Source: a virus
IMG/VR virus record: IMGVR_UViG_3300022885_000024
Location: 1 to 49,529 of that record
DNA length: 49,529 bases
Direction: 5' to 3' (one strand)
Shown here: in pieces, positions 38,825 to 46,599 of the stretch
Position numbering within the stretch: the stretch's first letter is position 1
Layout of the letters: every line of letters begins with the position of its first letter
Translations under genes and position numbers: made by a program
The notes under the pieces: model-generated
What the model was told of the DNA's origin: nothing
The model's database searches: none
The model's input: only the letters and a program-made list of their open reading frames with translations

Positions 38825-39436
38825 ATGTATGATGGTTTTGATGTATTTAAAGTATATTTGGGAGTTAAATTACACTTCACAACAAAAACTTATGATTATG
38901 TTAAATATGAAGGAAAGGTTAACGTTAAACTTGAAACATTTACAAAAAGAAATGATCGTTATTTCTTTTACAAGTTAAGCAAACAATATGGACAAAATGA
39001 TATACTTGATTTCTTTGTTGCAAACTTTGCTTCAGATAGTAAGGGATGGATTGGTAACCTTTTACAAAGAGATGGTAAAGATGTGTTCCTGGATTATAAG
39101 AAACGTAAAGAATCCTTTATCTACCACTTTAGAAGTGATTGTACATCTATTGTTAATGACTTTCATGCTCGTGGTATTTCTTTTGATGATGGTTTTCTAT
39201 GCCATAGCGGACAACATCCTAGATTTTTACGATTACTTATACAAAAGAAATTATCCTTACAAACCGCTATCGTGTTTGACCACTTCTTATCGTTTAGTAA
39301 GAATTGGACTAAAGAAATTACCGAGAAAGTTGTATGGCCTAAAATCTCATCTACGCTTACCAGATTAAAACCATTTATGAGATTTAATGAAACAGAATGT
39401 AAAATGATTATGAAAGAAGTCTTTGTAAATGAGTAA
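38825..39436 (+). CDS. 59: T4 gp59-like helicase loader (203 aa)
   Basis: In T4, gp59 loads helicase gp41 onto gp32-coated forks. Here DGFDVFKVYLGVKLHF, DYVKYEGKVN and YFFYKLSKQYGQNDILDFF match the gp59 N-terminal half, and LSLQTAIVFDHFLSF with KPFMRFNETECKMI the C-terminal half. The length is near T4 gp59 (217). The ATG at 38825 is one base after the gp33 stop; an upstream GTG at 38804 is less likely. Its gp32 partner is encoded 1 kb downstream. Confidence 0.87.
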   Translation: MYDGFDVFKVYLGVKLHFTTKTYDYVKYEGKVNVKLETFTKRNDRYFFYKLSKQYGQNDILDFFVANFASDSKGWIGNLLQRDGKDVFLDYKKRKESFIYHFRSDCTSIVNDFHARGISFDDGFLCHSGQHPRFLRLLIQKKLSLQTAIVFDHFLSFSKNWTKEITEKVVWPKISSTLTRLKPFMRFNETECKMIMKEVFVNE

Positions 39437-40286
39437 AGTATTTTGTATAGGTAATGGTGAAAGTAGAAAGTCATTTGATTTAAGAATACTAAAACCTCAT
39501 GGGAGAACTTATGGTTGTAATGCTTTGTATAGAGATTTTACACCTGATGTATTGACAGCAGTTGACCATGGAATCATGCACGAGATATATCAAAGTGGTT
39601 ATTGTGATAAGAATGAAACTTGGTTAAGAAATTGGACTAGAATACCAGCACCAACATACGATACATTAGTCTATGGTAATATGAAGAATGAAGATAAAGA
39701 ATTAATTGACAAGTACCAATCAAACAAATTAGAAAACAAACGAGATGATAAACAAGAGTTTGTATTTCATGGTTCCAATCTTGCTGGCAAAGTACAAATA
39801 TTAAAATCAAAATCTAATAAAAAAGAAGTTGTTGAAAAGAATATTAATCACACAAGTACCTATGTAAGTTGGACTAGTCCAGAGGATAAGGCAAACTCTT
39901 TAGATGATTTAGTTGAAGGTCAACGAGATAGTGGTTGGGCTTGTGGTGCTTCTAGTGGAAGAGTGGCGTTAATAAGAGAAAAGAATTTGCAAGAGTTATA
40001 TTTAATTGGACACGATTTAGTCAGCGACACTCATAAAATTAATAATATGTACAAGGGTACAAAGTATTATGGAGTACCAGAGGCTTCACCAATACCATCT
40101 GTTAATTGGATTAATCAATGGAAAACTTTAATGACGGAATATCCTAAAGTTAAGTTTATTAAAGTCAATCCAGATGGAAATAGTGGTAAAACACCAGTAA
40201 GCTCCCCTATAAACGAATGGGCTGGTTTAAAGAATTTAGAGTATATGTCGTTTGAAAGGACACTTGACAAATTTAGTAAAGTGTGA
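39429..40286 (+). CDS. Conserved phage protein with GNGESR start, DUF115-like (285 aa)
   Basis: Begins MSKVFCIGNGESRKSFDLRI then GCNALYRDFTPDVLTAVDHG, a pattern close to the nucleotide-binding N-terminus of DUF115-like proteins and common in marine T4-like phages. Later GWACGASSGRVALIREK and LYLIGHDLVSD are conserved-looking. Rossmann-type ligand binding is likely; the ligand is unknown. It overlaps gp59 by 8 bases, and the promoter P9 sits inside its 3' end. Confidence 0.75.
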   Translation: MSKVFCIGNGESRKSFDLRILKPHGRTYGCNALYRDFTPDVLTAVDHGIMHEIYQSGYCDKNETWLRNWTRIPAPTYDTLVYGNMKNEDKELIDKYQSNKLENKRDDKQEFVFHGSNLAGKVQILKSKSNKKEVVEKNINHTSTYVSWTSPEDKANSLDDLVEGQRDSGWACGASSGRVALIREKNLQELYLIGHDLVSDTHKINNMYKGTKYYGVPEASPIPSVNWINQWKTLMTEYPKVKFIKVNPDGNSGKTPVSSPINEWAGLKNLEYMSFERTLDKFSKV

Positions 40287-42045: not shown

Positions 42046-42113
42046 TGAAAACAATTAAAAGAATTATAGCAAAATTATTTGGCATAAAACAATGTCAATG
42101 TAAAGGTAAGTAA
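42045..42113 (+). CDS. Tiny CxC-containing peptide (22 aa)
   Basis: ATG 42045 overlaps the stop before it (TAATG), and its own stop overlaps the next ATG in the same way. The product is MKTIKRIIAKLFGIKQCQCK plus two residues: a basic helix and a Cys-x-Cys end. The double coupling supports a real gene, perhaps a translation bridge or a small tail component. Confidence 0.55.
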   Translation: MKTIKRIIAKLFGIKQCQCKGK

Positions 42114-43084
42114 TGGCAATTTTAAGAGGCGGGACAAGAATATTTGGCCAAGATATAAGAATTGGTCTTCCTAGAGATAACACTTTGACAACAGGTGGTA
42201 TTTTAAAAAGAGCTTCTGAACTTCCAGGTAAAAGTATTGGTGCTAGTGAAAGCACAATAGGCCGATTTATGGCCAATATTGGTCAAGGTGAGGGTATGGC
42301 TAGACCTACTCGTTATCTCGTTAGATTTAATATGCCAAATAACATAGTTTTAGGTAACAACAGTGAAGGATTAGATAACGAAGAAATAGAAGCAAGAGCC
42401 GTAGCGAAACAAGGTATAAATGACATAGGCGGCCAAGAATTGGCAAGAACTGTTGGTATGATGTGTGAAAGTATTGAAATGCCGGCAAGAAGTGTTACAA
42501 CAGCAGATAGTATCACTTATGGACCAAAAAGAAAAATGCCAACGGGTTACAATTTTCCAGGAGAAGTACAATTATCGGTTTATGGCGACAAGTTTTTAAG
42601 ACAAAGAATGTTTTTTGAAACTTGGCAGAAAATGATTTTTGATATAAACTCACACAATATGAATTATTATGAAGAATATACAGGCTCAGTTGATATTATG
42701 CAATTAGGTTCATTTGAAGCCGAGAATGATAGAGATAGAGTTACATATATGGTTAGATTATATGAATGTTATCCACAAACAATTGGTAGTTACGATTATA
42801 GTTATGGTTCTGTGAATGACATAGTAAAATTACCAATTACACTGAATTACAGAAATTGGAGAAACTTAGGTATTGACCAAGTAAACAATTTTACAGTTGG
42901 CAAATCATTTGGTACTTTGCCTAAAATCAAACCATCACCTGGTTTTGGAGGGATATTTGGAGGCATACTAAATAGATTACCACCTGAATTGAAAAGAGCA
43001 GGTGCACAAGTGGTCAATACAGCGAAAAGAAATTTGCCTATTGGTCGAGTATTTGGCGGAAAAGTTTTTCCACCATTTTTATAA
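42113..43084 (+). CDS. 54: gp54-like baseplate tail-tube initiator (323 aa)
   Basis: In T4, gp54 (320 aa) sits on the baseplate and starts tail-tube polymerisation; it shares the tube-protein fold with gp19. Here RYLVRFNMPNNIV, MCESIEMPARSVTTADSI, GPKRKMPTGYNFPGEVQLSV and FETWQKMIFDINSHNMNYYE match the tube-type fold of contractile phages, and the length fits gp54. A tube protein gp19 has about half this size, so gp54 is favoured. The C-terminal 70 residues are Gly/Pro-rich. Confidence 0.7.
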   Translation: MAILRGGTRIFGQDIRIGLPRDNTLTTGGILKRASELPGKSIGASESTIGRFMANIGQGEGMARPTRYLVRFNMPNNIVLGNNSEGLDNEEIEARAVAKQGINDIGGQELARTVGMMCESIEMPARSVTTADSITYGPKRKMPTGYNFPGEVQLSVYGDKFLRQRMFFETWQKMIFDINSHNMNYYEEYTGSVDIMQLGSFEAENDRDRVTYMVRLYECYPQTIGSYDYSYGSVNDIVKLPITLNYRNWRNLGIDQVNNFTVGKSFGTLPKIKPSPGFGGIFGGILNRLPPELKRAGAQVVNTAKRNLPIGRVFGGKVFPPFL

Positions 43085-43114: not shown

Positions 43115-43855
43115 ATGACATTACCTAAAGTAGAGGTACCTACATATGAGTTGACTTTACCATCGCAAGATATAAAAGTTAAGTATCGACCATTTTTAGT
43201 AAAAGAGGAAAAGATACTTTTAATAGCTGCTGAAACAGGTGGCCAAAAAGAATTGGTGCAAGCAATTAAAGATATAGTTGACGCTTGTACATTTAAGAAA
43301 GTTGACGCAAGTAAACTGCCTATTTTTGATTTAGAATATTTGTTTTTACAAATAAGAGCTAAGTCAGTAGGTGAAATAGCAAAGATAAAGATTTTATGTC
43401 CAGATGACAACGAAACATATGCTGACATCTCAATTGATTTAAGTAAAGTTGAGGTTCAAGTAGATGATAGTCATACTAATAAAATAATGATTGACGAACA
43501 AAAAAACTTAGGTATTATATTTAAATATCCTACAATAGATAGTATTTCATTAAAGGCTGGCGAAGATGTTAAAGCAAATACAGAAACGTTGTTTTCTGTT
43601 CTTGTTGGTTGTATTGACCACATTTTTGAGGGTGAAAAAGTCTATCATTCCACAGACAGTAGTGCGGAAGAGTTAAAAGAGTTTTTAGAAAATCTATCAC
43701 AATCAAACTTTGAAAAACTTAAACAATTTTTCGAAACAATACCAAAATTAACACACGAATTGGAAATAGAAAATCCTAAAACGAAAGTTAAGAGTAAAGT
43801 GACACTATCAGGTGTACAAGATTTTTTCGGATCAGCCTCTCCCATAACAGCCTAG
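43115..43855 (+). CDS. 26: gp26-like baseplate/tail assembly protein (246 aa)
   Basis: Matches the T4 gp26/gp51 baseplate family: PTYELTLPSQDIKVKYRPFL then VKEEKILLIAAETG, DACTFKKVDASKLPIFDLEY and FLQIRAKSVGEIAKI. These proteins help build the baseplate hub and correspond in position to the tail-assembly chaperones found before tape-measure genes. AAGGAGA precedes the ATG. A T TTT TTC slippery site nine codons before the stop, with a hairpin after it, suggests that part of the ribosomes shift into the gp51-like frame. Confidence 0.82.
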   Translation: MTLPKVEVPTYELTLPSQDIKVKYRPFLVKEEKILLIAAETGGQKELVQAIKDIVDACTFKKVDASKLPIFDLEYLFLQIRAKSVGEIAKIKILCPDDNETYADISIDLSKVEVQVDDSHTNKIMIDEQKNLGIIFKYPTIDSISLKAGEDVKANTETLFSVLVGCIDHIFEGEKVYHSTDSSAEELKEFLENLSQSNFEKLKQFFETIPKLTHELEIENPKTKVKSKVTLSGVQDFFGSASPITA

Positions 43856-43859
43856 AGGC
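43822..43859 (+). promoter_or_regulatory. Candidate -1 programmed ribosomal frameshift site
   Basis: The heptamer T TTT TTC (43822-43828) is in the correct phase with the gp26-like frame (GAT TTT TTC). Six bases later a stem GCCTCT (43835-43840) pairs with AGAGGC (43854-43859), loop of 13, enclosing the gp26 stop codon TAG (43853-43855) in part. This layout is that of classical -1 frameshift signals in tail-assembly chaperone genes. A shift would read on in the frame that ends at 44016. Confidence 0.75.
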
Positions 43860-44016
43860 CTACTTCGAAACTAATTTTGCTCTGATGCAACATCATAAAT
43901 ATAGCTTGAGAGAGATTGAATCATTAATGCCGTGGGAACGTGACATTTATGTTAATTTACTTACAAGTTATATTAAAGAAGAAAACGAAAAAAGACAGAG
44001 AGAGACACAAAAGTAA
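43828..44016 (+). CDS. 51: gp51-like reading frame reached by -1 frameshift (62 aa extension)
   Basis: After a shift at 43828 the frame reads SLEAYFETNFALMQHHKYSL then REIESLMPWERDIYVNLLTS and a charged end, up to the stop at 44014-44016. This block is what I recall as gp51 (hub assembly catalyst) in marine T4-like phages. The frame is closed just upstream (stop at 43795-43797) and its only ATG in the early part (43885) lies inside the conserved block and has no ribosome site, so fusion to gp26 (about 300 aa in all) is the simplest way to make it. The next gene starts on its stop. Confidence 0.7.
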   Translation, partial: RISLSHNSLEAYFETNFALMQHHKYSLREIESLMPWERDIYVNLLTSYIKEENEKRQRETQK

Positions 44017-44372
44017 TGGAACCAGTAATAGTAAAAGAAAACACAGAAAACACAGTAAAACCGGTATCTAAAGAAAATACGGTGACTAAAAAGGTTACTG
44101 TAGAATTAGAGGTTGATACTTCTGTAAAAGACTTAGGACCGAATCCATATGCTAAATTAATTCATCTGGCTAGAGCGGTAGACGCTTGGAGAATATTCCC
44201 TAGAATATTCATATCAGTATATATGGTGTTACTATATCAAGTAATAGTTTGGTATATGAACATGCCAACACCTACTATGGAACAATCAGGCTTAGTATCA
44301 ATCGTAGTTGGTGCTGGTGCCGCATGGTTCGGTCTATACACAGGTTCAGGTTCAAGTAAAGGTAAAAAATAA
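44016..44372 (+). CDS. Two-helix membrane protein of the tail region (118 aa)
   Basis: A disordered Thr/Lys/Glu-rich start (1-45) is followed by LIHLARAVDAWRIFPRIF, a membrane helix (FISVYMVLLYQVIVWYM) and a second, Gly-rich one (GLVSIVVGAGAAWFGLYTGS). I recall relatives in many marine phages, encoded among structural genes and of unknown role. It lies between the chaperone-like gene and the tape-measure-like gene and is coupled to both by overlaps. Confidence 0.75.
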   Translation: MEPVIVKENTENTVKPVSKENTVTKKVTVELEVDTSVKDLGPNPYAKLIHLARAVDAWRIFPRIFISVYMVLLYQVIVWYMNMPTPTMEQSGLVSIVVGAGAAWFGLYTGSGSSKGKK

Positions 44373-46132
44373 TGGCAATAGTAGCTACAGTACAAGATTT
44401 AGCGGAACAACAAACTGAAGAACTTGCAAATAAATTTGCTGGTATTTTAAAATCTGTTGTGCCTGATGTTACTAAATCTTTGTCAAAAACAGCTGAATCT
44501 TTTCAAAAAGCATTACTGACAGGTAGTAATCAGAAAATACAAACGGCTTATGGTAACTTAAAGACTTTTTTAAAGAACTTTGATGTGAGTATAGGCGATT
44601 TAGGTGAGGGATTTAGAGATACAGAAAAAGTATTTAAAAGTTTAACAGACCAATTTGCAGATACAGATGAGAAAATACAAGGATTAAGAGAAAAGAATAT
44701 ATTTGCTGAAAAAGAATTGTTTGTTAATAAAAAAAATAACAATTTAGAAGTTAGAGCTACAATTTTAACAGATCAACAATTATTTGAAAAAAGAAAGAAA
44801 CTTTTAGCAAAAGAAAAAGACTTAAAAGATAAAGAAAAAGACTATTTAGATCAAATAAGAAGATTTCAATCAGGTGAAGATACATTATCTAAATCAAAAA
44901 AGGCAAACTTACTAAAAAACTTTCAAAACAACCAAGACGAAATCAAAAACACAGAGGAATTAAAAAAGTTATATTCAGGTAAAGGTGGTTTAGCTGTCAA
45001 TCTTTTAGATAGATTTGAACGATCTTTAGAAGATAACGCTCCTAGTTTTTTAGTAGCTGCTTTTGCGCCAATCATTGATATAGCTAGACAATTTCAAAAA
45101 ACATTTGGTTTATTAGTATCAGGAATTAAATCTACTGCTAAGTTTATAGGTGGATTATCTGAATCATTTAATTCAGTTAAAAAAAGTTTTAGTAAAACAA
45201 TGACAAGTATAGGTGGCGGGCTTAAATCATTTGGTAAATCAATAAAAATGGCCTCTCTAGGATTGCTAAAGTTTGTTAAAAGAATTTTTCTAGCAGGAAT
45301 GGCCTTGTTACTAGGTATCATAACACCATTATTACCAATAATAATACCTATGTTAGCATTCGCAGGCATAGTAACTACGGTAGTAGCCGGACTATATTTG
45401 CTTAAAAAAGGTTTAAACGCACTAGTAGATTGGTTTAAAAATAGTACCATAGGTAAACTGTTAGGTTTAGATGATAAATCACAGGAGAAAAAAGAAAAGA
45501 AAGATAAAAAAGATGGTACAGGCAAATATCAAGGCTTGGAGGGTGAAATGGATTATGGAGATTATGGAGATACAAGTTCACCTAAAGCTAAAGTTATAAT
45601 AGAAAAACCTTTAATGCCAGCTAATACAGGTGACGCCGGTGTCGCAGAAAAAGTGGCTCAAGATAATAAATCAGGTAAAGAAACTATTGGCGGTAAATAT
45701 AATTTTCAAGACGGCGTATTCCAATATAACGGTGAAAATTTTGAAACTAGCAAACCACAGAAGGCAAAGAGGATCGCTAAAATAATAGGAGACCAAGTTA
45801 AAGTTGCAAAAGATAATAAATCAGGTAACTATGTTATAGTTAAAAAAGATATGGTGACAACTGAAAAACCTGACACAAAAATTATGCAAGGCGCAACTGG
45901 TGATATAGAAGGTATTACAGGATCTAAACAAGATAAATTTAAGAAACCAGATACTATTAAAAAAGATTTAAAAGGTGAAGGCACATCATCAAGTAATACT
46001 ACAACAACAGTAGTTAATAATCAACCTACATCTAGTGAAACAAAAGTAAATAATACAAGTATGTTTACTCCTATTAATACAAGTTCAGGTGATAGTTATT
46101 TCGATAGACAAGCAAACGCTTCAAATTTTTAA
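44372..46132 (+). CDS. gp29-like tape-measure/baseplate hub protein (586 aa)
   Basis: By size (T4 gp29 is 590 aa) and place it fits the tape-measure protein that sets tail length. The N-terminal 200 residues are helical and charged; a hydrophobic segment at about 300-345 (IFLAGMALLLGIITPLLPII, IPMLAFAGIVTTVVAGLYLL) is usual in tape measures, which enter the membrane on injection. The C-terminal part is Lys-, Gly- and Thr-rich with an internal repeat (AQDNKSGKETIGGKYNF against AKDNKSGNYVIVKKD). Sequence identity to T4 gp29 is not obvious. Its stop shares TTAA with the converging gp4-like gene. Confidence 0.68.
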   Translation: MAIVATVQDLAEQQTEELANKFAGILKSVVPDVTKSLSKTAESFQKALLTGSNQKIQTAYGNLKTFLKNFDVSIGDLGEGFRDTEKVFKSLTDQFADTDEKIQGLREKNIFAEKELFVNKKNNNLEVRATILTDQQLFEKRKKLLAKEKDLKDKEKDYLDQIRRFQSGEDTLSKSKKANLLKNFQNNQDEIKNTEELKKLYSGKGGLAVNLLDRFERSLEDNAPSFLVAAFAPIIDIARQFQKTFGLLVSGIKSTAKFIGGLSESFNSVKKSFSKTMTSIGGGLKSFGKSIKMASLGLLKFVKRIFLAGMALLLGIITPLLPIIIPMLAFAGIVTTVVAGLYLLKKGLNALVDWFKNSTIGKLLGLDDKSQEKKEKKDKKDGTGKYQGLEGEMDYGDYGDTSSPKAKVIIEKPLMPANTGDAGVAEKVAQDNKSGKETIGGKYNFQDGVFQYNGENFETSKPQKAKRIAKIIGDQVKVAKDNKSGNYVIVKKDMVTTEKPDTKIMQGATGDIEGITGSKQDKFKKPDTIKKDLKGEGTSSSNTTTTVVNNQPTSSETKVNNTSMFTPINTSSGDSYFDRQANASNF

Positions 46133-46566
46133 TAGATACCTAATTCTTTTTCAGTAAAGATTTTAAACTCCAAATCATTATCATTACAGTACACATCAGC
46201 GGCTTGCCATTTGGCTACATTTTTGATATACTCTAAACTCTCTCTCATAAATGCTCTTGACTTCTTTGTTCTAGGTTTAGGTTTTTTAGTTTGGGCGGCT
46301 GGTTTTATCTCTATCATAAAACGCTTGCCATTTTTTGTTTTTATGATAAAGTCAGGATAGTAACGGTGCCTCTTTCTATCAATAGGATTAATGTAAGGTA
46401 TCGCCAATTCTTCACTTGCCCAATGGATTATATCATCATTCCTATCACAATATAACATAAATTTCTTTTCCCATCCGGATCTATAGACGATTCTTTTAGG
46501 ATCGCCAGCATATTTGCTTGGATTGGTTGGTCTGTAAATACCTTTATACGATTGTCTTTTTTTCAT
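46129..46566 (-). CDS. 4: gp4-like head completion protein (145 aa)
   Basis: The only minus-strand gene found. In T4, gp4 (150 aa) is needed to complete filled heads and has a nuclease-like fold. The sequence KGIYRPTNPSKYAGDPKRIV, RSGWEKKFMLYCD, then YYPDFIIKTKNGKRFMIEIK gives D72, E86 and K88 of a PD-(D/E)XK-type site, with E33 upstream. The start MKKRQSY is preferred over an in-frame ATG 33 bases upstream. It ends on the TTAA shared with the tape-measure-like gene. No strong late promoter is seen on its strand; GATAAATA at 46597-46590 is a possible variant. Confidence 0.88.
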   Translation of the reverse strand: MKKRQSYKGIYRPTNPSKYAGDPKRIVYRSGWEKKFMLYCDRNDDIIHWASEELAIPYINPIDRKRHRYYPDFIIKTKNGKRFMIEIKPAAQTKKPKPRTKKSRAFMRESLEYIKNVAKWQAADVYCNDNDLEFKIFTEKELGIY

Positions 46567-46574
46567 TATAAATA
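46567..46574 (+). promoter_or_regulatory. T4-type late promoter TATAAATA before gp48
   Basis: TATAAATA on the plus strand, directly beyond the start of the minus-strand gp4-like gene. The gp48-like ATG is at 46600, leaving a leader of about 20 bases with AAAGG at 46584-46588. So this late promoter, unlike the others, gives a normal leader. Confidence 0.65.
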
Positions 46575-46599
46575 TTACTATACAAAGGTTATTTATCAC

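Follow-up and report, generated by a model that had tools for sequence, protein, structure and literature searches.

The window, by which we mean the whole stretch of 49,529 nucleotides analysed (IMG/VR virus record IMGVR_UViG_3300022885_000024, positions 1 to 49,529), belongs to an uncultivated T4-related marine phage. Its tail region holds, in order, a tail-tube-like gene, a gp26-like gene with an overlapping -1 frame, a gene for a 118-aa protein and a long gene with a weak tape-measure match (Table 1). The gp26-like frame begins at an ATG preceded by AAGGAG, ends with a TAG at 43853-43855 and contains the T4_baseplate domain (PF12322), the mark of the gp26/gp51 family. This is the single PF12322 match in the record, a 49.5-kb fragment, and no second one that could represent a separate gp51 was found there. 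A profile of the gp26-like protein matched no sequence of a solved structure. Likewise, a fold search of the PDB with its AF2 model (pLDDT 86) gave no significant match, the HK97 chaperone 2OB9 being matched at E 1.9 (TM 0.43 by target length), and the matches in BFVD were other gp26-type proteins. Elsewhere in the window, the minus strand at 46129-46599 encodes a gp4-like head-closure protein (phrog_218, 1.2e-56) with a second match, to a TnsA-like endonuclease domain (PF08722, 4.6e-21), and a 285-aa conserved protein of unknown function (39429-40286; phrog_30607, 5.8e-63) is encoded between gp59-like and gp32-like genes.

Table 1. Features of the gp26-like locus and its neighbours (window coordinates).
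Feature	Positions	Strand	Remarks
Tail-tube-like protein (gp54/gp48 type), upstream	42113..43084	+	phrog_45 tail tube, 1e-34
gp26-like ORF, short form (TAC-N, lambda G-like)	43115..43855	+	246 aa; PF12322 2.4e-63, phrog_150 2.7e-78
Slippery heptamer T TTT TTC, 0 frame	43822..43828	+	codons GAT TTT TTC; in phase
Spacer GGATCA, 6 nt	43829..43834	+	last triplet is the 0-frame stop in most relatives
Downstream stem, 5' arm GCCTCT	43835..43840	+	predicted hairpin, -7.5 kcal/mol
Downstream stem, 3' arm AGAGGC	43854..43859	+	overlaps the 0-frame stop
-1 frame extension (TAC-C, gp51-like C-terminal block)	43828..44016	+	62 aa, RISLSHNSLE...RETQK; stop TAA 44014-44016
118-aa small protein	44016..44372	+	phrog_10198, unknown function, 5e-22
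586-aa candidate tape-measure protein	44372..46132	+	weak phrog_305 tail length tape measure match, 4.8e-4

The original prediction for this locus was a -1 frameshift that joins the gp26-like and gp51-like frames in a role like that of lambda G/GT, and all of the sequence evidence supports it. The heptamer lies in phase with the gp26-like frame, as claimed, and shortly before that frame ends; the second frame, open from 43798 to 44016, overlaps the first in the -1 register. Read on after the slip, it gives RISLSHNSLEAYFETNFALMQHHKYSLREIESLMPWERDIYVNLLTSYIKEENEKRQRETQK, which matches phrog_634, 'baseplate hub assembly catalyst' (gp51 family), at 2.8e-27, so that the predicted long form would carry the C-terminal block of gp51 as foreseen. 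A Pfam candidate for this block, Stealth_CR2, was rejected (0.005, far below the cut-off). The fusion had been expected at about 300 aa, and joining 43115-43828 to the -1 frame yields a computed length of 300 aa.

Scanning IMG/VR with the fusions of the window and of S-PM2 returned 80 loci each, and other queries contributed 5 further loci; in scans of viral contigs, the fusions of KVP40, phiM9, Mendera and SRB7757 found 2, 1, 2 and 0 loci. The heptamer is not a product of chance: relatives keep it, and although ORFs of 150 aa or more in the window contain 22 Phe-Phe codon pairs, no other stands in a T TTT TT[TC] context. The original prediction had called for a search for the heptamer and the stem in related phages, and for the heptamer the outcome is clear: TTTTTT[C/T/G] stands in phase before the stop at 161 of the 164 IMG/VR loci with a readable gp26 end. 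The three exceptions are indels, located upstream in L014 and L175 and within the run in L190. L189 and L190 are near-twin Stenotrophomonas phage genomes, and the T that L190 lacks, which alters its reading frame at the junction, is probably a sequencing error. In a non-redundant set of 88 sequences, with fewer than half of the 8-mers in common, the in-phase heptamer is present in all 88, with TTT as the first Phe codon and a T preceding it every time (GAT, AAT, AGT or TCT). The 0-frame stop comes in two layouts, 10 bases past the heptamer start (68/88) or 31 bases past it (20/88, the window's type included).

We computed pN/pS between relatives of 70-95% identity for the region past the 0-frame stop. 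The -1 frame scored 0.22 in the window-like class, where the other two frames scored 1.2 and 1.7, and 0.14 in the other layout class, where they exceeded 1.1; the gp26 end gave 0.33-0.35. As pairs are non-independent and synonymous sites near saturation, the contrast between these frames, rather than the exact pN/pS, is the evidence. The eight codons directly before an internal Met of the gp51-like block showed a pN/pS of 0.13-0.15 in the -1 frame, suggesting that translation enters from upstream. Judged by these substitution patterns, purifying selection acts on the -1 frame, even ahead of any usable ATG.

The gp51-like block had been described as having neither a start codon nor a ribosome site. 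The first statement holds for no more than the 19 codons that follow the slip, because in-frame ATGs occur at 43885 and 43927; from 43798 up to 43885 the frame has no ATG, GTG or TTG. As to the second, the ATG at 43885 has no Shine-Dalgarno sequence, and 68 of 70 relatives with MQHHKYS likewise have no such match there. The second ORF thus lacks an initiation signal of its own while showing coding selection in the -1 frame. The ATG at 43885 nonetheless exists, and gp51 might be made from it as a separate small protein by reinitiation or translational coupling. Annotators do place a gp51 start downstream of gp26, as the database annotations of Mosig and Melnitz imply, and in KVP40, phiM9, P10VF, EniLVp02 and Mendera a stop and a start codon overlap (TAATG/TGATG) just past the slip. 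We consider this improbable for several reasons besides the missing Shine-Dalgarno sequence. The internal Met is conserved in 80 of 118 relatives and replaced by L, I or V in the other 38, the -1 codons ahead of it show purifying selection, a start codon upstream of the slip or up to 7 codons past it is absent from 74 of the 88 non-redundant relatives, and coupling would leave the heptamer without a reason. The overlap of the 0-frame stop with a -1 frame ATG was recorded at loci L086 (KVP40, 2505), L087 (phiM9, 2191), L094, L095 and L098; there, reinitiation by coupling could yield a free C-terminal protein in addition to the product of the frameshift.

After the six-base gap that the original prediction described, the two arms of the downstream stem are exact reverse complements, and in the window they span the stop TAG. 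The claim of a perfect six-pair stem is correct for the window itself but only in part for its class, in which five pairs are invariant and the sixth, T-A in the window, is G.A or A.A in 22 of the 32 distinct relatives that share its layout. With five invariant pairs and a sixth that mostly does not form, the window's exact stem has thin covariation support. The position of the stem is fixed in most relatives: a perfect six-pair stem starts at +7/+8 after the heptamer in 66 of 109 distinct sequences, compared with 6% of shuffles, and the distance is the same in both stop layouts, the TAA, TAG or TGA of the other layout corresponding to a sense triplet in the window's class. Stem sequences differ by lineage (GCCTC/GAGGC, GCCTGT/ACAGGC, CACTCTTCC/GGAAGGGT and, in P-SSM2, AGTATGGCTCA/TGAGTCATACT). 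Two-sided pair changes are few (+7/+31, +11/+27 and +9/+32; for example GCCTCT/AGAGGC to GCCTGT/ACAGGC), and hairpins were assigned to registers by best fit, which favours pairing. Since the hairpin is weak or absent in P19, S13 and Ci1, the stem is not universal. Most relatives thus possess a candidate stimulatory structure downstream of the heptamer, within the distance of ~5-9 nt expected for a programmed -1 frameshift site.

The spacing of this hairpin suits a ribosome, and it speaks against transcriptional slippage, in which RNA polymerase would add or remove mRNA bases on the T6 run and so join the frames. A homopolymer run is indeed present, but it is only six long, and its second Phe codon is TTC in 82 of 88 relatives, in genes whose other Phe codons are mostly TTT (852 versus 245 TTC), the opposite of what RNA polymerase slippage would prefer; we regard this explanation as slightly less probable still than a separate gp51. 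That a single fused gene was broken by sequencing error or decay is refuted by the comparative data, for although one-base homopolymer indels are common, as the one-T difference between L190 and L189 illustrates, the same -1 layout, its stop kept and its -1 frame under selection, recurs in many isolate genomes and in over 160 independent contigs.

Together, these features are best explained by a tail-assembly chaperone pair of the lambda G/GT type produced by -1 frameshifting, a reading to which we give a probability of roughly 0.92. Most ribosomes would stop at the end of the gp26-like ORF and release the short chaperone (TAC-N). A minority would pause at the hairpin, the tRNA-Phe in the P and A sites would slip back by one base, and the -1 frame would be read to its end, giving the long form (TAC-NC). 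If lambda gpG/gpGT is taken as the model, the tape-measure protein may be coated by many copies of the short form, and the long form, which would be rare, may recruit tail-tube subunits through its C-terminal part. We infer slippage, its efficiency and chaperone function; a chaperone role is suggested by homology to T4 gp26/gp51, by the architecture of the locus and by the cited literature.

An in-phase heptamer followed by the -1 block occurs in 20 named phages of several families: Mosig, Melnitz, S-PM2, P-SSM2, MED4-213, BUCT-ZZ01, phiM7, phiM9, P10VF, IC12, KVP40, EniLVp02, P19, PX29, Aeh1, S13, Ci1, Mendera, pf16 and SRB7757. The layout is found in phages of Pelagibacter, Synechococcus, Prochlorococcus, Sinorhizobium, Vibrio, Aeromonas, Cronobacter, Stenotrophomonas and Pseudomonas, and 933 INPHARED records match the fusion. 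Among the phages examined that have a short gp51 block, all carry the heptamer except Ackermannviridae (IME250, PhaxI, T751) and Vibrio phage K361, which do have the -1 block but read GATTTTC or ACTTTTC where the heptamer would be. The Ackermannviridae loci (L089, L100, L104 and L191-L205) all share ATTTTCATTTAATTTTTGAAATTG at the gp26 end (at ~2293 of the locus; in L100 at 2533), despite proteins that differ by up to 30%, and their -1 frame, often unannotated, runs into the gp51-like block without a canonical heptamer. It is possible that ATTTTCATTTAATTTTTGAAATTG acts as a non-canonical frameshift signal.

Separate gp51 genes without the heptamer, named beforehand as a finding that would refute the frameshift, do exist in T4 and Aeromonas phage 31, where genes 26 and 51 are separate and divergent. 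In both phages gp51 is a full-length paralogue of gp26 with N- and C-terminal parts, PF12322 matching both proteins along their length, rather than the C-terminal block encoded on its own; these phages therefore do not refute the prediction. T4 gp51 matches phrog_150 as well as phrog_634. Of the two T4 proteins only gp51 has the C-terminal part; gp26 stops at the point that corresponds to the slip, its end reading AAAGAGTTCTTTGAG... We tentatively suggest, with rather less than even confidence, that one cassette (T TTT TTC, a six-base spacer and a lineage-specific hairpin) persists in T4-like phages that infect many different hosts, that gene duplication replaced it in T4 and its closest kin, and that in Ackermannviridae a non-canonical -1 signal, the invariant ATTTTCATTTAATTTTTGAAATTG without a heptamer, took its place.

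Such a pair would also explain an earlier observation. Sullivan et al. 2010 described the gp51 of cyanophages and vibriophages as lacking the first ~200 aa and found none in Aeh1 (PMC3037559); the missing part would be gp26, joined to the rest by frameshifting. The gp51-like -1 frame is present yet unannotated in P19 (L088), S13 (L207) and Aeh1 (L206, about 2280-2450), the last having been reported as the only T4-like phage that lacks gp51. Many marine phage database records give gp51 a doubtful start or leave the frame out, and correcting them would yield the proper long chaperone.

The original prediction knew of no frameshift of this kind in T4-like phages, and on this point it was wrong. 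Tail assembly chaperones had been identified in T4-like phages in 2022 (Vladimirov, Gautam and Davidson, Virology 566:9-15; cited in PMC10885494 and PMC12846349); by these citations, some of these phages have one short and one fused long gene (PMC10885494), and TAC-N genes carry poly-T -1 shift signals (PMC12846349). From the citing papers, and from T4 gp51 matching both parts, we infer that the genes concerned are gp26 and gp51, the same pair as in the window. The kind of system is thus already known from the 2022 work as cited, and the window's contig is a well-supported further member. Specialists who know that paper will not be surprised; the locus is well suited to studies of how phages exchange frameshifting for gene duplication.

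Among known systems, T4 offers gp26, listed with gp51 as a hub assembly chaperone (PMC3004832), as the counterpart of the short form and gp51 as that of the long form; unlike the window, it has two divergently oriented genes and no slip site. The TAC locus of Pakpunavirus and Vandenendeviridae resembles the window in having a conserved poly-T -1 shift close to where a myovirus TAC-N gene ends and in a downstream ORF that is mis-annotated, as in the window's kin, although it belongs to another phage family and its motif is GTTTTT (PMC12846349). No sequence similarity was found between the window's proteins and lambda-type chaperones. The window's heptamer is T TTT TTC, its gp26 is more than twice as long as the HK97 chaperone chain, and, unlike in lambda, the extra 118-aa gene lies between the chaperone frames and the putative tape measure. 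Nevertheless, as in lambda gpG/gpGT (Levin 1993; Xu, Hendrix and Duda 2004), the slip site lies near the 3' end of the short ORF, the -1 extension has no start of its own, and the pair sits in a tail cluster before a long putative tape-measure gene.
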